Shown piece after piece: positions 991-50,638 of a DNA stretch of 64,000 nucleotides. Below the pieces are notes generated by a model. It had not been told where the DNA came from. It saw only the letters and a program-made list of their open reading frames with translations, and searched no databases. This DNA comes from Acidobacteriota bacterium (GTDB lineage: Bacteria > Acidobacteriota > Vicinamibacteria > Vicinamibacterales > UBA2999), in the NCBI GenBank assembly GCA_030697165.1, contig JAUYQQ010000021.1:1-64000 (forward strand). The letters run 5' to 3'. Numbering within the stretch: the first letter of the stretch is position 1; each line of letters starts with the position of its first letter. A program made the position numbers and the translations under genes.

Positions 991-1242
991 GGCCGCAGAT
1001 TTCGCAGATTCACACAGATACCGGGCGGCCCGACGCGGAGCTTCGCTCCCGCGGACCGAGCAGGCAAAACTCAGAAACGAGAGTGGCGGTGCTCAAGAGC
1101 ACTCTCGTTTCTGAGTTTTACCTGCTCGGTCAGGCCGGTTGGGAGAACACCAACCGGCCTGCGTCGGGCCGCCGTGTCTTGTGTCACTTGGCGGTCGCCT
1201 GGTTACTGTAATCGGTGACCAATCGTGTTTAATCTGTGGCTG
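991..1242. repeat. Cloverleaf repeat element, copy 1
   Basis: The 343-nt gap between the acyltransferase and the sigma factor is filled by a ~250-bp element. Flanks carry CAGATT-type phrases (left ..CGCAGATTCACACAGAT, right AATCTGTGGCTG). Its core is a nested fold: a perfect 13-bp outer stem GGCGGCCCGACGC (1024-1036) with 1161-1173, enclosing three hairpins: a 5-bp one (1037-1049), a 31-bp one with one mismatch (1055-1085 with 1100-1130), and a perfect 12-bp one (1131-1142 with 1150-1161). A second copy lies at 3151-3400 in the same orientation. No ORF is conserved in it. Confidence 0.9.
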
Positions 1243-3150: not shown

Positions 3151-3400
3151 GGCCACAGATTCCGCAGATTCACACAGATGCTGAGGCGGCCCGACGCGGA
3201 GCTTCGCTCCCGCGGACCGAGCAGGTAAAACTCAGAAACGAGAGTGGCGGGCTCAAGAGCACTCTCATTTCTGAGTTTTACCTGCTCGGTCAGGCCGGTT
3301 GGAAGAACACCAACCGGCCTGCGTCGGGCCGCCGTGTCTTTGCGTCGCTGAGCGGTCGCCTGCTTGAATCGGTGTCTAATCGGTGTCTAATCGGTGGCTC
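3151..3400. repeat. Cloverleaf repeat element, copy 2
   Basis: Second, same-orientation copy of the element at 991-1242. The 13-bp outer stem is 3185-3197 with 3321-3333. The long hairpin arms are 3216-3246 and 3260-3290, again 31 nt with one mismatch at a different position from copy 1. The terminal hairpin CAGGCCGGTTGG/CCAACCGGCCTG is intact with a changed loop. The left flank reads CCACAGATTCCGCAGATT and the right flank has two copies of GGTGTCTAATC. It fills the 305-nt gap before the deacetylase gene. Confidence 0.9.
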
Positions 3401-15685: not shown

Positions 15686-15802
15686 ATCCGCCTAAAGGCG
15701 GATGCTACATCGATGTGGTGTCCGGCTTTAGCCGGACCATACCGCCATGTGGTGTCCGGCTTCTTGACCGGCCGTAGCCTTGGCGAAGGCTGTTAGCCGG
15801 AC
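15686..15802. repeat. Cluster of three dispersed hairpins
   Basis: Gap between recX and pilT. Hairpin 1: ATCCGCC-TAAA-GGCGGAT (15686-15703). Hairpin 2: GTCCGGC-TTTA-GCCGGAC (15720-15737). Element 3: arms GTCCGGC (15754-15760) and GCCGGAC (15796-15802) enclosing an inner AGCCTTGGCGAAGGCT palindrome. Copies 2 and 3 are preceded by the constant leader ATGTGGTG. Element 3 is a clear homologue of the coding copy at 19878-19925. Confidence 0.9.
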
Positions 15803-15803
15803 C

Positions 15804-17009
15804 TCACTGTCCGAACCGGGTAATCTCCGGCGGCTTGGGCGCCGGCTTGGCCGCCGCGGCCGCGCCCGGCTTCGCGCCGGGCCTGGCCGGGCTGGCGAAG
15901 ATGGTGCCGGCCATCTGGTCGCGCGACATATCCGCGGTGTTTGAAATGCCCTGCACCCGCAGCTTGAACTCGTCCACGTTCGAGGCCCAGCGCAGCGCCT
16001 CGTCGTAGCTGATCAACTCTTCCTGGTACAGGCTGAAGATCGACTGATCGAAGGTCTGCATGCCGTACTGTGACGTGCCCTGCGCGATGGCGCCGGCAAT
16101 CAGGTGCGTCTTGTCCTTGTCGACGATGCAGTCCTTGATGAACGGGGTGGCGACCAGCACCTCAACCGCCGGGGCGCGGCCGACGCCGTCCTGGCGCGGA
16201 ATCAGGCGCTGGGCGATGGCCGCCCGCAGCACCGACGCCAGTTGCAGGCGGATTTGCTTCTGCTGGTGCGGCGGGAAGACCGAGATGATGCGGTTGATGG
16301 TCTCGGTCGCATCGAGCGTATGCAGCGTCGAGAAGACGAGGTGGCCGGTCTCGGCGGCGTGCATCGCCGTCTCGATGGTTTCCATGTCGCGCATTTCGCC
16401 GACCAGGATCACGTCCGGGTCCTGGCGCAGGGCGCTGCGCAGCGCATAGGCGAACGACCGCGTGTCGACGCCGATCTCGCGCTGGTTGATGATGCACTGG
16501 TTGTCGCGGTGCAGGTACTCGATCGGGTCTTCGATCGTGATGACGTGCGAAGTGCGGGTCTTGTTGATGTAGTCGATCATCCCGGCCAGCGTCGTGCTCT
16601 TGCCGCTGCCGGTGGTGCCGGTCACCAGCACCAGGCCGCGCTCTTCCTCGGCAATCTTCTTCAGCACGGGCGGCAGGCCCAGTTCGTCGAGGCTCTTGAC
16701 GTTGACCGGAATGACCCGCAGGACGCAGCCGATGGTGCCGCGCTGCTGGAACACGTTGCAGCGGAAGCGCCCCAGGCCGGGGACGCTGTACGCCAGGTCC
16801 ACTTCCTGCGAGTCCTTGAATTTCTGGCGCTGGGCGGTCGACATGATCGACGCGGCCATCTCGACCAGGTCTTCGTGATTGAGTTGCTTCTCCGCCGACA
16901 CCGGGGCCAGGTGTCCGTGGATGCGGGCCATGGGGTAGCTGCCGACCTTCAGGTGCAGGTCGGAGGCGCCCTTCTCGACAGCGAGTTTCAGCAGGTCGTT
17001 GACGTGCAT
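15804..17009 (-). CDS. pilT: Type IV pilus retraction ATPase PilT
   Basis: 401-aa hexameric AAA+-like motor that depolymerises type IV pili for twitching motility and DNA uptake. N-terminal PAS-like domain: MHVNDLLKLAVEKGASDLHLK. Walker A is GTTGSGKSTT near residues 134-143; the Asp box and Walker B region includes DPDVILVGEMRD; the His box is GHLVFSTLHT. The C-terminal ~60 residues extend into an Ala/Pro/Lys-rich tail (ASPARPGAKPGAAAAAKP), longer than in standard PilT. The start ATG 17009 is chosen over an upstream in-frame codon because it restores the conserved N-terminus. comEC elsewhere in the window also belongs to natural transformation. Confidence 0.95.
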   Translation of the reverse strand: MHVNDLLKLAVEKGASDLHLKVGSYPMARIHGHLAPVSAEKQLNHEDLVEMAASIMSTAQRQKFKDSQEVDLAYSVPGLGRFRCNVFQQRGTIGCVLRVIPVNVKSLDELGLPPVLKKIAEEERGLVLVTGTTGSGKSTTLAGMIDYINKTRTSHVITIEDPIEYLHRDNQCIINQREIGVDTRSFAYALRSALRQDPDVILVGEMRDMETIETAMHAAETGHLVFSTLHTLDATETINRIISVFPPHQQKQIRLQLASVLRAAIAQRLIPRQDGVGRAPAVEVLVATPFIKDCIVDKDKTHLIAGAIAQGTSQYGMQTFDQSIFSLYQEELISYDEALRWASNVDEFKLRVQGISNTADMSRDQMAGTIFASPARPGAKPGAAAAAKPAPKPPEITRFGQ

Positions 17010-17028: not shown

Positions 17029-17991
17029 CTAGCTGGCCTGGCCCGCCGAAGCCTCGGCGAAGGCGGCAACTCCTACCGGCGTGAGCCAGTTGTGCGTGTC
17101 GGGCAGTTCGCCGCGGAGAATGCCGAAGAACCGCTGTTGCAGGGCTTCGGTCACCGGTCCGCGCTGGCCGTTGCCGACGGTGATCTTGTCGATCGAGCGA
17201 ATGGGGGTGATCTCGACCGCCGTGCCACAGAAGAACGCTTCGTCCGCGAGGTAGACAAACTCGCGCGGGAGGGACGTTTCCCGCACGGTGAAACCCAGGT
17301 CGGCGGCGAGCGTGATGACCGTCTCGCGCGTGATGCCCTGCAGCACGGACGAGCCGAGCGAGGGGGTATAGATCACGTTGTCCCGCACCAGGAACAGGTT
17401 CTGCCCGCTGCCTTCGCTGAGCAACCCGCTCTCGTCGAGCGCGATCGCGTCGGCGTAGCCGTCGAGCACCGCCTGCATCTTGATGAGGGCGGAGTTGGCG
17501 TAGTTCGCCGTGCCCTTGGCGAGCGCCGGCAACGTGTTTGGCGCGAGACGGGTCCACGAGCTGACGCCGACGTCGATGCCGTGCTCCAGGGCCTCGGCGC
17601 CCATCATCAGGCTCCATTCCCAGACCACGACCGAGGCGTCAACCGGGCACGGCCGCGGATCGAGCGTCAGCGAGTCGTAGCCGCGGTAGACCAGCGGCCG
17701 GATGTAGCAGCTCTTGAAGCCGTTGACGCGGACCGTGTCGAGCACCGCCTGCGAGAGCTCGGCCTGCGACCAGCGCGGCTCCATGCGATAGACGCGGCAC
17801 GAGTCCATCAGCCGGCGCATGTGCGGCTCGAGACGGAAGATGTTGGTGCCGGTCTTCGAGTCGTAGGCGCGAATGCCCTCGAAGACGCCGGTGCCGTAGT
17901 GCAGCGCGTGTGAGGCGACGTGGATGGTGGCGTCCTGCCAGTCCACCAGCGACCCGTTCATCCAGATTTTGCCGGTTCCCGCAAATGCCAT
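17029..17991 (-). CDS. ilvE: Branched-chain amino acid aminotransferase
   Basis: 320-aa fold-type IV PLP enzyme interconverting Leu/Ile/Val and their 2-oxo acids. Conserved elements: HYGTGVFEGIRAYD near residues 31-44, LAKGTANYANSALIK with the expected PLP lysine in LAKG, and EGSGQNLFLV and GTAVEITPIRSID in the C-terminal half. Start ATG 17991 gives MAFAGTGKIWMNG. The last ~14 residues (AAFAEASAGQAS) are translated from a GC-rich palindromic repeat at 17040-17062 and are not part of the conserved fold; the original stop was probably displaced. Confidence 0.95.
   Translation of the reverse strand: MAFAGTGKIWMNGSLVDWQDATIHVASHALHYGTGVFEGIRAYDSKTGTNIFRLEPHMRRLMDSCRVYRMEPRWSQAELSQAVLDTVRVNGFKSCYIRPLVYRGYDSLTLDPRPCPVDASVVVWEWSLMMGAEALEHGIDVGVSSWTRLAPNTLPALAKGTANYANSALIKMQAVLDGYADAIALDESGLLSEGSGQNLFLVRDNVIYTPSLGSSVLQGITRETVITLAADLGFTVRETSLPREFVYLADEAFFCGTAVEITPIRSIDKITVGNGQRGPVTEALQQRFFGILRGELPDTHNWLTPVGVAAFAEASAGQAS
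17040..17062. repeat. Palindromic repeat forming the ilvE 3' end
   Basis: On the minus strand this reads GCCGCCTTCGCCGAGGCT followed by TCGGCGGGC, an imperfect hairpin translated in frame as AAFAEASAGQ at the ilvE C-terminus. It is related by sequence phrase (CGCCTTGGCGGA, CCGCCAAGGCTACGGCGG) to others in the window. Confidence 0.7.
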
Positions 17992-18019
17992 GATGGCGGA
18001 TTGTACTCCGGGCTGAGGT

Positions 18020-18086
18020 CCGCCTGAAGGCGGCCGCCACATGTGGCGGGGCAGTCGTTGGTGGAGGCAACCCTTCCGGGTTGCCT
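18020..18086. repeat. Three hairpins between kinase and ilvE
   Basis: CCGCC-TGAA-GGCGG (18020-18033), a perfect 16-bp palindrome CCGCCACATGTGGCGG (18034-18049), and GTGG + AGGCAACCC-TTCC-GGGTTGCCT (18065-18086). The last belongs to the GGTGGAGGCAACCC family also at 29129, 36701 and 41670, and overlaps the kinase stop codon by two bases. Confidence 0.85.
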
Positions 18087-19074
18087 ACTGGCGTTCGGAG
18101 CAGAAGGGACAGACGTCGGCGCGGGCCGCCAGGGCCTTGCCGCACTTCCAGCAGAACTTGGCCTGCACGGTTTCGCGTGCCTTGAGGCGGGCCTGGATGT
18201 CCTGGACCTCGTCCGACGCGGTGCTGGCCGCACCCGGGGCCGGCCGCCAGGGACGCCGGCCCGCCGGGCTTGGGGCCGGTTGACGGGCCGCGAGCACCGC
18301 ATCCAGCAGGTCCGAGGCGCGCTGGTAGCGCGACGGGATGTCGGCGGCGATCGCCTTCATCACGATGTCGCTGATCGCCTTGGGCAGCTTCGGGTTCTTC
18401 AGCTTCGGCGGCGATGCCAGTTCGCCGCGCATCAACTTGTCGAGGTCGGCCGGCATCGGCGTGTCGTACGGGAGCACACCGGTGAACATCTGGTACATGG
18501 TCACGCCGAGCGAGTAGATGTCCGAGGCAAACACCGCCTTGCCCTGGAACTGCTCGGGGGCCATGTACGGCGGGCTGCCGATCACCGTCGTGCCATGTGC
18601 CGCGATCTCGAGGAAGCGCGAGGTGCCGAAGTCGGCGACCTTGATCAGCCCCTGCCCGGTCACCAGCACATTGCCCGGCCGCAGGTCGCGATGGATGACG
18701 CCGTGCTTGTGCGCGTGGTCCATCGCGTTGCAGATCTGGCAGGTGTAGTCGAGCGCGCGGGCGAGGTCCAGCGTGCCATCGCGATCGATCACGGCCTCGA
18801 GCGTGTCGCCCGGCACGTACTCCATCACGATGAAGAACACATCGTCTTGCTTCTCGGCCGTGAGCACCGTGACGATGTTGGGATGGCTGAGCGTGGCCAG
18901 CAGGCGGGGTTCGCGGAGCAGTTCGCTGAAGTCGATGTTCTGGCGATGCGGGACCTTGATCGCCACCTTCTTGTCGATCCAGGTGTCTTCGGCGAGGTAG
19001 ACGCTGCCAAAGCCGCCGCTGCCAAGAGGGGAGAGGATGCGGTACTTCCCGACCGTTTGTCCGCGAAAGAACAT
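18085..19074 (-). CDS. Ser/Thr protein kinase with C-terminal zinc ribbon
   Basis: 329-aa Hanks-type kinase without membrane segment. N-lobe: LGSGGFGSVYLAEDTW (Gly loop, residues ~17-32) and VAIKVP (ATP-binding Lys). Catalytic loop HRDLRPGNVL, with Arg in place of the usual Lys after HRDL; the catalytic Asp is kept. DFG is present as VADFGTSR, and the APE region as YMAPEQF. After residue ~260 there is a Pro/Ala linker, a short helical segment (VQDIQARLKARETVQ) and a four-Cys zinc ribbon FCWKCGKAL..CPFCSERQ at the very end. It is probably an active cytosolic kinase. It is divergent from rsmE with only 25 nt between starts. Confidence 0.9.
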   Translation of the reverse strand: MFFRGQTVGKYRILSPLGSGGFGSVYLAEDTWIDKKVAIKVPHRQNIDFSELLREPRLLATLSHPNIVTVLTAEKQDDVFFIVMEYVPGDTLEAVIDRDGTLDLARALDYTCQICNAMDHAHKHGVIHRDLRPGNVLVTGQGLIKVADFGTSRFLEIAAHGTTVIGSPPYMAPEQFQGKAVFASDIYSLGVTMYQMFTGVLPYDTPMPADLDKLMRGELASPPKLKNPKLPKAISDIVMKAIAADIPSRYQRASDLLDAVLAARQPAPSPAGRRPWRPAPGAASTASDEVQDIQARLKARETVQAKFCWKCGKALAARADVCPFCSERQ

Positions 19075-19099
19075 CTGTGCGCATGAGTATACTCTCCGC

Positions 19100-19834
19100 G
19101 TGCGCCCGCGTTTCTACGTGCCCGACCTCGATGCTGCCGCGGCGAGCGTGCCGGTGCCCGACGATGAGGCCGAGCATCTGGTGCGCGTGTTGAGGCTGGG
19201 GATCGGGGCCGAGGTGGAGGTGTTGGACGGCCGCGGCGGGTTGTGGCGGGCCGAAGTCGTCGAAGCGGGGAAGCGGTCGGCCTCAGTGCGCGCGATCGAA
19301 CCAGTCGCGCCGGCGCCGGAGATCGGCCTGCCGATCGACTTGGTCATCAGCGTGCTCAAGGCCGACAAAATGGACGACGTTGTTCGCGACGCCGTGATGC
19401 TGGGCGCCACCGGCATTCGCCCCGTGGTGAGCGACCGCAGCGAGATCACCCTGTCGACCGTGGAGAAGAGCCAACGCGTGGCGCGGTGGCAGCGCATTGC
19501 CGTGTCGTCGGCCAAGCAGTGCGGGCGGGCAGTCGTGCCGATCGTGGCGCCCGCGCAGACGCTGGCCGGCTACTTCGCGCAGCCGGTGGACGCCGTGCGG
19601 CTGGTCTGCGTCGAGCCTGCTGCCGGCGGGGGCACACGACCCGTGCAGGAGATTCCCAAACCGGCTGCGGCGCATGTGATAGTGGGCCCAGAGGGCGGGT
19701 GGACGGCTGCCGAACTGACGGCGGCGCTAGCTTCCGGGGCGATGGCCATGTCGCTTGGCGGCCGCACGTTGCGTGCTGACGCGGCGCCCCTGGTGGCATT
19801 GACGGCCTTGTTAACGACCTGGAGTGAACTGTGA
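19100..19834 (+). CDS. rsmE: 16S rRNA (uracil(1498)-N(3))-methyltransferase
   Basis: 244-aa SPOUT-class methyltransferase modifying U1498 in helix 44 of 16S rRNA. It begins with the N-terminal PUA-like domain (RFYVPD..DEAEHLVRVLRLGIG), followed by the SPOUT trefoil knot (VIVGPEGGWTAAELTAAL and MSLGGRTLRADAAPL). Start: GTG 19100 giving MRPRFYVPD; the frame extends further upstream but overlaps the divergent kinase start. In many bacteria rsmE follows prmA in the dnaK/dnaJ operon; here it lies about 2.4 kb away on the opposite strand. DUF1028 overlaps its stop by 1 nt. Confidence 0.93.
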   Translation: MRPRFYVPDLDAAAASVPVPDDEAEHLVRVLRLGIGAEVEVLDGRGGLWRAEVVEAGKRSASVRAIEPVAPAPEIGLPIDLVISVLKADKMDDVVRDAVMLGATGIRPVVSDRSEITLSTVEKSQRVARWQRIAVSSAKQCGRAVVPIVAPAQTLAGYFAQPVDAVRLVCVEPAAGGGTRPVQEIPKPAAAHVIVGPEGGWTAAELTAALASGAMAMSLGGRTLRADAAPLVALTALLTTWSEL

Positions 19835-20634
19835 TGAGAGTCAAAGGGCGGGTAGGGCTGGTAGGGCTGGTTGTGGCGTCCGGCTTCTTGACCGCCGGAG
19901 CCTCGGCGAAGGTGGTTAGCCGGACCGTTCTTGCCCAGGACCCGACTGGCATGCCGCCACCGGTGGCGACGTTCTCCATTCTCGGGTATGACCCGGACAC
20001 GGGCGAGGTCGGTGGTGCCGTGCAGTCGCGCGTGTTCTCGCTGACCGGCGTGCTGACCGCCGATGCCGACGCCGGCGTGGTCGCCACGCAGGCGATTGTC
20101 GATGTGAGCTACGGACCGAAAGGCATCGCGCTCTTGAAGGCCGGGATGAAGCCCGACGCCATCATCAAGGCCATCTGGGAGAGCGACCCCGATCCGCAGC
20201 CCGAACGCTGGACCAAGCAGGGCCGCCAGTTTGCCGTGATCGATCTCCAGGGCAACACCGCCGTGTTCACCGGGCCCAAGGCCAGCACGTGGGCGGGGCA
20301 CAAGCAAGGCAAGTTCAGCACCGCGCAGGGCAACATCCTTGCCGGTCCAGCGGTGGTCGAGGGGATGATCAAGGCGTTCGAGGAAACCAAGGGCCACCTC
20401 TCCCTGCGGCTGATGGCGGCGCTCGATGCCGGCCAGGCCGCCGGCGGCGATACCCGCGGCATGCAGGCCGCATCGATGGTGATCGTCAAGAAGGGCGGCG
20501 GGGTGTGGCTGAACAACGACACCGTGCTCCGCTTCCAGGTGGACGACAGCCCTGATCCGTTCAAGGAGCTGCGACGAGTGGTCGAGAACTGGAACGCCGC
20601 GCGCGAGAAGGGCAGCCAGCGGCCGGTGAAGTGA
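19834..20634 (+). CDS. Secreted DUF1028 protein (Ntn-hydrolase-like)
   Basis: 266-aa DUF1028 protein; the family is predicted to have an Ntn-hydrolase fold of unknown substrate. The conserved core starts near residue 42 with ATFSILGYDPDTGEVGGAVQS and includes VDVSYGPKGIALLKAG, the Gly-rich AAGGDTRGMQAAS, and a C-terminal VDDSPDPFKELRRVVE. ATG 19834 overlaps the rsmE stop (TGATG). Residues 5-31 form an apparent signal peptide (VGLVGLVVASGFLTAGASA then KVVSRT) that is encoded entirely by repeats: a 9-nt tandem array then a long hairpin element matching the noncoding copy at 15754. This makes the export signal look newly acquired. Confidence 0.85.
   Translation: MRVKGRVGLVGLVVASGFLTAGASAKVVSRTVLAQDPTGMPPPVATFSILGYDPDTGEVGGAVQSRVFSLTGVLTADADAGVVATQAIVDVSYGPKGIALLKAGMKPDAIIKAIWESDPDPQPERWTKQGRQFAVIDLQGNTAVFTGPKASTWAGHKQGKFSTAQGNILAGPAVVEGMIKAFEETKGHLSLRLMAALDAGQAAGGDTRGMQAASMVIVKKGGGVWLNNDTVLRFQVDDSPDPFKELRRVVENWNAAREKGSQRPVK
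19846..19925 (+). repeat. Nonamer array plus hairpin repeat encoding a signal peptide
   Basis: Three 9-nt units (GGGCGGGTA, GGGCTGGTA, GGGCTGGTT; 19846-19872) run straight into leader GTGGC and the hairpin arms GTCCGGC (19878-19884) and GCCGGAC (19919-19925), with TTCTTGACC and GCCTCGGCGAAGG inside, matching the intergenic element at 15754-15802. All of it is read in frame in the DUF1028 gene. Confidence 0.9.
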
Positions 20635-29116: not shown

Positions 29117-29128
29117 CTGGTCCGGTGG

Positions 29129-29153
29129 AGGCAACCCCTTCTCGGGGTTGCCT
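29129..29153. repeat. Hairpin AGGCAACCCC..GGGGTTGCCT
   Basis: Ten-bp perfect stem with TTCTC loop and leader GGTGG, in the padR leader region. It belongs to the GGTGGAGGCAACCC family (18065, 36701, 41670). Confidence 0.85.
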
Positions 29154-35750: not shown

Positions 35751-37253
35751 TTGGTTACAGACGTAGTGGACGGCGACTCCCTCGAAGCGGCCTTGCGCGA
35801 CTATGGTCCCGCGGCGATTGAAGACCTATTGCCGCGCCTTCGGGCGATCGCGGAGATCCTCGACGCCGCACATGCTTCCGGCCAGGTTCACGGCCGCCTC
35901 CATCCCCAGAATATTTTCGTCTCGGCCGACCAGACGCAGGTTCATGGCCTGGACGAGACCACGGCGGCGGCCGATCAACCGGCGCGTCCGCCCTATGCAG
36001 CGCCCGAAATCGCCGCCGGCGGGCCTGCGCAACCGGCCGCCGACCAGTTTTCGCTGGGCGCGATCGCGTTCGAGTGGATGTTCGGCCGGAGAATTTCCGG
36101 GCCTGCCGTGCGGCCAATCGAGGTGCGCGCGCTGCCCGGCGTCGATCGCGCCGCGTTGGCACGGGCGTTCACGCGCGCGCTGGCGCCGCAGCCGGCCGAT
36201 CGATTCGCGTCGTGCTTGGCCTTTTGCCAGGCGCTCGAAGCCGCCGTCATCCCCGTGCTGCCTCTTGGCGGCGCCGTTGACGAAGACGAAGACGTCCTCG
36301 AAACCGGGTTCCTGCCGGAGCCCACGCCCGCCTCGCCGATCGATCTCGATGAGCTCGAGCCGGTAGCAGCCGCGGTTCCGGTCCTGGAGGAGAAAGAGGA
36401 AACGCCACTGGAATCGTTCGAGCCCCGCCTGTCGCCGCCGGTTGAGCCCGTGACATCGTGGCAGCCGAGCGCCGCTTACACGCCGGCGAAGCCGGCCGAG
36501 CGGTTTAGCGGCGGCATGTTGATCGCGGCCTGCCTGGTCGGCATGGTGGTGGGTTTCGCGGCCGGCTACATGGCGCGGCCGCGCGCGCTGCAGACGCGCC
36601 CGATCCAGACGATGGCGGCGCCCTCGAACGGCACCGAGGCCGCGGTGAGTGCGCCGGTCGCCGCAGCGCCGGTCGAAGGGCCAGCTGAGGCGGCACCGCA
36701 AGGCAACCCCAAGAAGGGGTTGCCTCCACCCGTTGAAGTGAATGCGGGCCGCCTGCTGATTCGTTCGACGCCAAGCGGGGCCAGCGTCGCGGTGGACGGG
36801 GTCGCCCGCGGCGTGACTCCGCTGGCGCTCCGCGATCTCGAGTTGGGCTCGCGCAGGGTCGCCATTACCCGCCGCGGCTATATCGCCGAGGAGCAACGCG
36901 TCGTGCTGACGCGGGCCCGTCCCTCGCGGACGCTGGAAGTTCAGCTGACGCCGTCCGCCTCCGCGGCCGCCGGCCGCTCCGGCGTGACCTTGCCGAAGCC
37001 CGCAGGTTCGCCAGCGGGCGTCGGCGGGGCAGCGATGACCGGCGGTCTGTTAGTCGAGTCGCGTCCGCCGGGCGCCACCGTGACGGTGAATGGCACCAAC
37101 CGGGGCACCACGCCTCTGACGATTGAGGCCCTGGCCCCGGGGAGCTACCGCGTCGGCCTGTCGCTGGCCGGCTATCAGAGTTTTGCCACCACGGTACGCG
37201 TGGTGGCCGGCGAGCGCGCGCGCGCGGCCGCCTCGTTGAGCGTACAGGAGTAA
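35751..37253 (+). CDS. PEGA-domain protein with truncated pseudokinase domain
   Basis: 500-aa membrane protein. Residues 1-165 match only the C-lobe of a Hanks kinase: [39 protein letters not shown], then HGRLHPQN where HRDLKPxN is expected (catalytic Asp missing), no DFG, but an APE-like YAAPEIAAG. The N-lobe with the ATP Lys is absent. An acidic linker, a membrane helix near 256-275 ([18 protein letters not shown]), and two PEGA domains outside (~332-377 and ~428-472) follow. The start is TTG 35751, as no other start codon fits. Residues ~317-327 ([10 protein letters not shown]) are translated from an intergenic-type hairpin repeat. It precedes carA by 2 nt. Confidence 0.75.
36701..36730 (-). 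repeat. Hairpin repeat inside the pseudokinase gene
   Basis: AGGCAACCCC..GGGGTTGCCT (36701-36725) followed by CCACC: an inverted copy of the GGTGGAGGCAACCC element, read in frame without stop in the linker before the first PEGA domain. Confidence 0.9.
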
Positions 37254-41659: not shown

Positions 41660-41664
41660 GTAAC

Positions 41665-41691
41665 GGTGGAGGCAACCCTTTAGGGTTGCCT
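41665..41691. repeat. Hairpin AGGCAACCC-TTTA-GGGTTGCCT after carB
   Basis: Perfect 9-bp stem with a TTTA loop and leader GGTGG, 6 nt after the carB stop. Reference copy of this repeat family. Confidence 0.9.
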
Positions 41692-45724: not shown

Positions 45725-46576
45725 ATGAAGGCGACCGTCACCGTCCTTGGCAGCGGCACCTCGCACGGCGTGCCCATGATCGGTTGTACCTGCGCGGTAT
45801 GCCAATCAACCGATCCGCGCGATCGCCGCTTGCGGCCCTCGATTTACATCGCGGTCGAAGGCGGGCCAGCGATCCTGGTCGATACCTCGACCGACCTGCG
45901 CCAGCAGGTGCTGGCCAACCGCATTGCGCGCGTCGACGCCATCCTGTTCACGCACAGTCACGCCGATCACGTCATGGGTTTGGACGATGTGAGGCGGTTC
46001 AATGTGATGCAGGGCGGGGCGATTCCGGCGTTTGCTGATGAGCGGACCGCTGCGGATTTGCGGCGCACCTTCTCGTATATTTTCAGTCCGCCCAGCGAAA
46101 AGGGTGGCGGCATTCCAGAGGTGGCCCTCACCACGGTGACCGGGCCTTTCAACATTGGCGCGGTACGCGTTCAGCCGGTGCCGCTGTTCCACGGCTCGCG
46201 GCCGATCCTGGGATACCGGCTCGGGACGTTCGCCTACCTGACCGACTGCAATCGCCTGCCGGACGAGGCATGGCCGCTGCTCGAGGGCCTCGACGTCCTC
46301 GTGCTCGATGCGCTGCGTCACAAACCGCATCCCACCCACTTCACGGTGGCGGGCGCGCTCGAAGTGGTGGCGCGGCTGAAGCCGCGCCAGACCTACTTCA
46401 CGCACATGTGCCACAAGCTGCCGCATGCGGAGACCAACCGGTCGCTGCCGGCCGGCGTGGAGCTGGCCTATGATGGCCAGGTGGTGACGATCGACGTGGG
46501 GGATGAATCCACCTCCGCTGAGGCTTCCTCCTCCGCCAAGGCTACGGCGGACAAGCCGGCGGATCAATGGACGTAA
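45725..46576 (+). CDS. PhnP-like metallo-beta-lactamase-fold hydrolase
   Basis: 283-aa MBL-fold phosphodiesterase-like protein. Metal motif FTHSHADHVMGLDDVRRFN (HxHxDH near residues 77-82), later PVPLFHG, YLTDCNRLPDE with the bridging Asp, and a distal THMCHKLPH. An early CTCAVC pair (residues 20-26 of the GCTCAVCQS segment) is the zinc-site motif typical of the PhnP group. The C-terminal ~18 residues (STSAEASSSAKATADKP) are low-complexity and encoded by palindromic repeat sequence. It overlaps ribF by 10 nt. PhnP hydrolyses cyclic ribose phosphates in C-P lyase pathways; no phn genes are here, so the substrate is open. Confidence 0.85.
   Translation: MKATVTVLGSGTSHGVPMIGCTCAVCQSTDPRDRRLRPSIYIAVEGGPAILVDTSTDLRQQVLANRIARVDAILFTHSHADHVMGLDDVRRFNVMQGGAIPAFADERTAADLRRTFSYIFSPPSEKGGGIPEVALTTVTGPFNIGAVRVQPVPLFHGSRPILGYRLGTFAYLTDCNRLPDEAWPLLEGLDVLVLDALRHKPHPTHFTVAGALEVVARLKPRQTYFTHMCHKLPHAETNRSLPAGVELAYDGQVVTIDVGDESTSAEASSSAKATADKPADQWT
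46507..46556 (+). repeat. Palindromic repeat at the 3' end of the PhnP-like gene
   Basis: Contains ACCTCCGCTGAGGCTTCC and TCCGCC-AAGGCTAC-GGCGGA (46532-46551), translated as STSAEASSSAKATADK. Confidence 0.75.
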
Positions 46577-50569: not shown

Positions 50570-50580
50570 GGTCCGGCACC

Positions 50581-50638
50581 GATGTGGCGTCCGGCTTTAG
50601 CCGGACCTTGTCGTAGAGGCGGGTCTTTAGACCCGCCT
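50581..50638. repeat. Two TTTA-loop hairpins
   Basis: Leader GATGTGGC then GTCCGGC-TTTA-GCCGGAC (50589-50606), and AGGCGGGTC-TTTA-GACCCGCCT (50617-50638), in the gap before yraN. They combine two stem families with the same loop. Confidence 0.92.

Follow-up and report, generated by a model that had tools for sequence, protein, structure and literature searches.

REP sequences of the GTAG class are reported to occur within open reading frames in several species (PMC3733652). Rickettsia palindromic elements (RPE; Ogata et al. 2000), which are 105-146 bp long and occur in Rickettsia, and the YPAL/RU-2 MITE, which forms part of the predicted signal peptide of Yersinia YPO1552 and for which a new exported protein was proposed (Delihas 2007), are both summarized in PMC2229807. 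In Neisseria, Correia elements come in 107- and 155-bp forms, with the open-frame form located within genes and the other form between genes (PMC2229807).

Here, we describe a REP-like palindrome in the N-terminal coding region of a DUF1028 gene in the window, i.e., the whole 64,000-nucleotide stretch of Acidobacteriota DNA that was analyzed. Very probably, a 57-nt palindrome entered, in frame, a DUF1028 signal peptide that already existed, and a 9-nt array replaced or enlarged the hydrophobic core of this signal.

The DUF1028 gene and its repeats

The window belongs to a genome of 5.39 Mb (G000); the stretches examined, including the window, come to approx. 2.46 Mb. Those close relatives that bear a name in the genome collection are Acidobacteria MAGs, two of them from Lake Baikal. 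The relevant features of the window are as follows:

15708-15738, plus strand: short-form copy of the palindrome (GATGTGGTGTCCGGCTTTAGCCGGACC), intergenic
15746-15804, plus strand: noncoding long-form copy, 58-nt type
17039-17067, plus strand: inner-hairpin remnant, overlapping the C-terminus (AFAEASAGQAS) of a minus-strand aminotransferase-like gene
19037-19834, plus strand: upstream gene, 265 aa, putative RsmE-like (by eye)
19834-20634, plus strand: DUF1028 gene, 266 aa
19846-19872, plus strand: three 9-nt tandem units (GGGCGGGTA GGGCTGGTA GGGCTGGTT), encoding GRV GLV GLV of the hydrophobic core
19870-19926, plus strand: 57-nt REP-like palindromic element, long form, encoding VVASGFLTAGASAKVVSRT
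46527-46562, minus strand: inner-hairpin remnant
50577-50607, plus strand: short-form copy

The DUF1028 protein matched Pfam PF06267 (E = 1.8e-57; 194.7 bits as compared to a curated cut-off of 26.2) over residues 46-246 and profile positions 1-193 of 193, and an NCBIfam search gave no name for it. Orthologues were found in 19 genomes of the order, 8 of the 9 genus genomes among them. As the TGATG overlap of its ATG with the stop codon of the upstream gene is common to G003, G005 and G008, the start codon is well placed; the order of the two genes is kept in several genus members.

Counted from the ATG at 19834, the 9-nt units represent codons 5-13 and the element represents codons 13-31, the first bases of the element being common to the last unit. 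An earlier note on this DNA had assigned residues 5-31 to three 9-nt units plus a hairpin element at 19846-19925, which is borne out except for the end coordinate, which was off by one (19926); its statement that the DUF1028 domain begins only after the repeats agrees with the start of the Pfam match. The noncoding homologous copy that it reported is also real, as a 67-base query around 15746-15804 matched 19872-19926 (E = 1e-13); this query matched 42 places in the genome. The window element has a predicted fold of -30.5 kcal/mol (z = -3.25).

The 9-nt units exceed chance, with 36 triple 9-nt tandems in 1.26 Mb as compared to 0 in three 200-kb Markov-3 sequences, and GGGC[GT]GGT-like arrays are present at other genome sites, both within and between genes. 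An array of the 9-nt unit TAGGGTGCC is located at 229-273 of the window, and this unit recurs many times genome-wide, in and between genes.

Sec signal peptides were judged by rule, i.e., by a basic n-region, an uncharged hydrophobic core and small residues at -3/-1. The window N-terminus has all three, with MRVKGR followed by 19 uncharged residues (Kyte-Doolittle maximum 2.82) and candidate sites at ASA-K and VLA-Q. Most of the present core is supplied by the 9-nt array.

The palindrome family and the reading frame

The family is represented in the genome by approx. 41 long and 149 short copies. The short form is GATGTRGYGTCCGGCTTTAGCCGGACC (149 exact cores in G000); its simple palindrome, GTCCGGCTT-AGCCGGAC, gave 149 exact occurrences in the genome, as compared to 0 for the reversed control. 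Copies are present in all genus members, in uneven numbers (149 in G000, 108 in G005, 4 each in G004 and G008, and 2 in G002). In the long form, the loop of the short palindrome holds a second hairpin, and one outer-stem pair of this form shows compensatory change (GC, 18; CG, 5). At least 53 of 54 short copies have GT at -5,-4, followed by GG (34) or AG (20), i.e., a GTRG tag with GTAG in the minority. With its short stem-loop and many dispersed copies, the family comes close to the GTAG-class REPs in architecture. Among the six PF01797 (Y1 transposase) genes in the genome, none has a repeat within 1.5 kb, and for this reason we class the element as REP-like rather than as a RAYT-linked REP.

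Called genes contained 33 of the 56 short copies and 7 of the 19 long copies present in 1.26 Mb, and the in-gene copies are read in several frames and in both directions (e.g., VASGFSRT, VRLKPDAT, GPAKAGH and ANHLRQGYGGQ). Under a strict rule (coding support of at least 5 bits on both sides; counts read by hand from the table), 12 of 20 copies of the 57-nt form were inside genes as compared to 0 of 17 copies of the 58-nt form (P = 7.1e-5; Fisher's test). The two forms have cores, i.e., nucleotides between the stem ends, of 44 and 45 nt, respectively. This contrast is the pattern expected from selection against frameshifts. In addition, in-frame insertions were found in conserved genes that have element-free orthologues, and in this the element behaves like the RPE.

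Several further observations concern repeats in genes and in the window. At L067:1500-1618, two long elements lie consecutively in one open frame (SGFLVRRSLGEGGSRTSGPVASGFLVRRSLGEGG), which differs from the frame of the signal-peptide copies. At C13:99285-120315 of G000 (L163 to L165), several large kinase-like genes carry 1-2 short REPs at the same N-terminal place (GLEEGPAEAGRHIG..VASGFSR); these REPs apparently spread along with gene duplication. The start of the listed minus-strand ORF 17029-18042 falls inside a REP (ATGTGGCGGCCGCCTTCAGGCGGACC, window 18017-18042), and this aminotransferase-like gene probably begins in reality with ATGGCATTTGCG at 17991; here, mechanical gene calling would yield a false N-terminus. 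A second palindromic family, GGTGGAGGCAACCC..GGGTTGCCT, has four window copies (18060-18086, 29123-29153, 36701-36730 and 41664-41691). Window positions 1024-1180 and 3185-3340 represent 98% identical blocks, approx. 2160 bases apart, with a 32-nt inverted repeat in each.

Signal peptides with and without the element

A signal-like N-terminal stretch ahead of [AG]TFSILG was read in all 19 members of the orthologue group (e.g., MKRLVMPVVLALLALVTVSA-QAPD in G008 and MIRPILLSFFVAGLGMSAIAA-QPQE in G002). In orthologues from the genus, family and order these signals are unrelated in sequence and occupy the same place, mostly with a ..A-Q end before the domain, which argues that the predicted signal is ancestral and predates the repeats. 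In silico deletion of the 57 nt yields MRVKGRVGLVGLVLAQDPTG, i.e., MRVKGRVGLVGL-VLA-QDP, which is still signal-like; its maximum hydropathy (Kyte-Doolittle, over 9 residues) is 2.78 as compared to 2.82 with the element, and the ancestral VLA-Q site immediately follows the core. An ancestral signal together with a signal-like deleted form suggests that the repeats remodelled an existing signal and did not create secretion.

In the earlier note, the repeats were taken to have created a secretion signal; on this reading, the DUF1028 protein would once have been cytoplasmic. What stands of this proposal is that the present core and a possible cleavage site come wholly from the 9-nt units and the element, and that such repeats also occur outside genes. 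The creation of secretion does not stand; the orthologue comparison that the note itself suggested found a signal-like N-terminus in the 18 other orthologues, from the genus to other families, as well as in the window gene, and with a deleted form that remains signal-like, we consider this origin very improbable. That the likeness to noncoding copies arose by chance, through a high GC content, can be practically dismissed, as a profile from which the window copy had been left out recovered it (19871-19928) from 1.26 Mb with E = 1.5e-17, and as this copy is 96% identical to a family consensus over 55 nt. According to the note, distant relatives sharing the N-terminus would have made the repeat similarity coincidental; no distant relative shares it. 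A further alternative is that the insertion weakened or destroyed export and that the gene is losing secretion or function. The element has indeed placed K and R (KVVSR) behind the hydrophobic core and ahead of the ancestral cleavage site, but the protein keeps an intact, conserved DUF1028 domain, a stretch of 19 uncharged residues is left with an ASA site ending it, and the comparable insertion at C2:39801 is common to G000 and G005, persisting between species; export loss thus seems unlikely.

According to the explanation that we favor, i.e., in-frame entry of the palindrome into an existing signal, a REP-like element, moved by some transposase, would reach many sites; gene-breaking copies would be lost, and copies that put 19 codons into a tolerant region would persist. 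The hydrophobic core would lie on one side of the insertion point and the ancestral ..VLA-Q cleavage site on the other. The window insertion has a length divisible by three and contains no stop in the reading frame. Judging from composition, the DUF1028 protein would still be exported, and the cut by signal peptidase I probably now falls within the repeat, at ASA-K (residues 23-26), a site that would replace VLA-Q (residues 32-35) or be used alongside it; we infer this shift because ASA-K is nearer to the core than VLA-Q. Signal peptides are read by composition and are therefore tolerant. The insertion may thus have persisted because a compositional signal tolerates new sequence and because this form spares the frame. 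Most simply, the element represents selfish DNA filtered by reading-frame selection.

The history of the insertion site allows two readings. In G004, whose 4-Mb genome has only 4 exact copies, one of these short palindromes occupies the equivalent position in the same frame (VASGFSRTVDAQ). The closest relatives (G003, G005 and G008) are without the element at the DUF1028 site whereas the more distant G004 has the short form, and a tree of the mature DUF1028 domain places G004 with G007, where the element is absent, and G000 on another branch. As closer relatives are without the element and the tree separates G000 from G004, there may have been either a single old insertion that was lost several times or two separate insertions at this site. 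G003 has a weak 23-nt hairpin-like stretch (E = 0.0009 against a small set of orthologue upstream regions only). In the signal peptide of G007, a palindrome-like stretch that by eye resembled a reversed inner hairpin was rejected, as the profile did not report it. In G013 (L015), short tandem repeats of the GAGCCGA type form a run directly upstream of the DUF1028 orthologue.

Six further signal peptides of G000 bear the family; for four of these, relatives were compared, and the element-free orthologues there also have a signal. In a second DUF1028 gene (C15), a reversed element lies at the cleavage region (VVTHA-PANHLRQGYGGQEAGGY-SEQD); G003 and G008 have VTVQA-QDA, and the signal is uninterrupted in six genus relatives. 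At C2:39801, the element is located right behind the start (MAE-19 aa-ITIAVAILC) in G000 and also in G005, as compared to MAR-ILILVAVLC in the element-free orthologue of G003. In the cupin-type gene C8:290155, a full element (LLMWRPAFLSAVALAEVEAGPIDAQA) separates the core from AQAIGG; it is absent in G006 (SAMAQA), G007 (PAHAQA), G002 (PAFAQA) and G008, and stretches that resemble it but are shorter occur in the orthologues of G005 and G003. The gene at C8:329064 contains only the inner hairpin (LSAVALAKVEAG), with other sequence there in G002, G005 and G007; it is the weakest case, since G008 has the similar peptide GVALAQV. Two elements are found in the signal peptide of C22:319k, and two short elements in that of C9:136739.

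These cases raise the alternative that signal peptides are a true hot spot, through target preference or an AVALAK-type cleavage region, such that insertions are favored and not just tolerated. Outside the window, 5 signal-peptide genes with the family were found in 2.4 Mb, where the share of coding DNA would predict 1.35-1.8 (Poisson P = 0.012-0.036), an excess that is suggestive, given small numbers, self-written gene and signal-peptide scripts, a hypothesis that arose during the inspection itself, and a null model that disregards the intolerance of most other coding sequence to insertions. In the first sample alone, with the window gene excluded, the excess was not significant (P = 0.16). 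A hot spot would also agree with the location of one of the 4 exact short palindromes of G004 in the DUF1028 signal peptide, and with most long signal-peptide copies being read forward, with (A)LA or ASA before K or E. We regard a hot spot as possible, though somewhat doubtful; it is compatible with in-frame entry into an existing signal and adds a cause to it. Equally tentative is the suggestion that the 57-nt, frame-neutral REP subfamily is a recurrent source of signal peptides in this lineage, above the background rate; one frame would provide a hydrophobic stretch and then A-L-A or A-S-A before K, i.e., a ready signal-peptidase site.

Comparison with known systems

That palindromic mobile elements occur within genes has been known since the work on Rickettsia, but examples in which close relatives preserve both the earlier and the later state are useful. 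Several signal peptides with and without the element within one genus make the states before and after insertion readable in close relatives, and the 57- and 58-nt forms of one element provide a natural test of reading-frame selection. It can now be tested whether signal peptides, which are compositional and not sequence-defined, are a main entry of mobile DNA into proteins.

Like the GTAG REPs described in PMC3733652, the family has a short stem-loop and is dispersed in many copies, and the GT[A/G]G tetranucleotide that directly flanks one end recalls their tag. Unlike them, it is mostly GTGG (approx. 34 vs. 20 of 54) and has an inner second hairpin in the long form, and no Y1 transposase gene of the window genome lies within 1.5 kb of the family. 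As in the RPE, a palindrome is found both between genes and in frame within conserved genes, where it would add a peptide and leave the gene unbroken; the element described here differs in that it is 27 or 57 nt long and occurs in Acidobacteria. With YPAL/RU-2, the family shares the contribution of a mobile element to a predicted signal peptide, but the window element appears to remodel the prior signal of a conserved protein. The division of length forms between genic and intergenic locations recalls the Correia elements, as the 57- and 58-nt forms are similarly split; however, the two elements are unrelated and of other size, and in the window family the difference is one of frame shift more than of stop codons. 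In the literature searched on RAYT/REP sequences and Acidobacteria, we found no description of the family. The kind of event has already been published, in the form of intragenic palindromes and a MITE-built signal peptide; what is new is this family member with clear comparative evidence.
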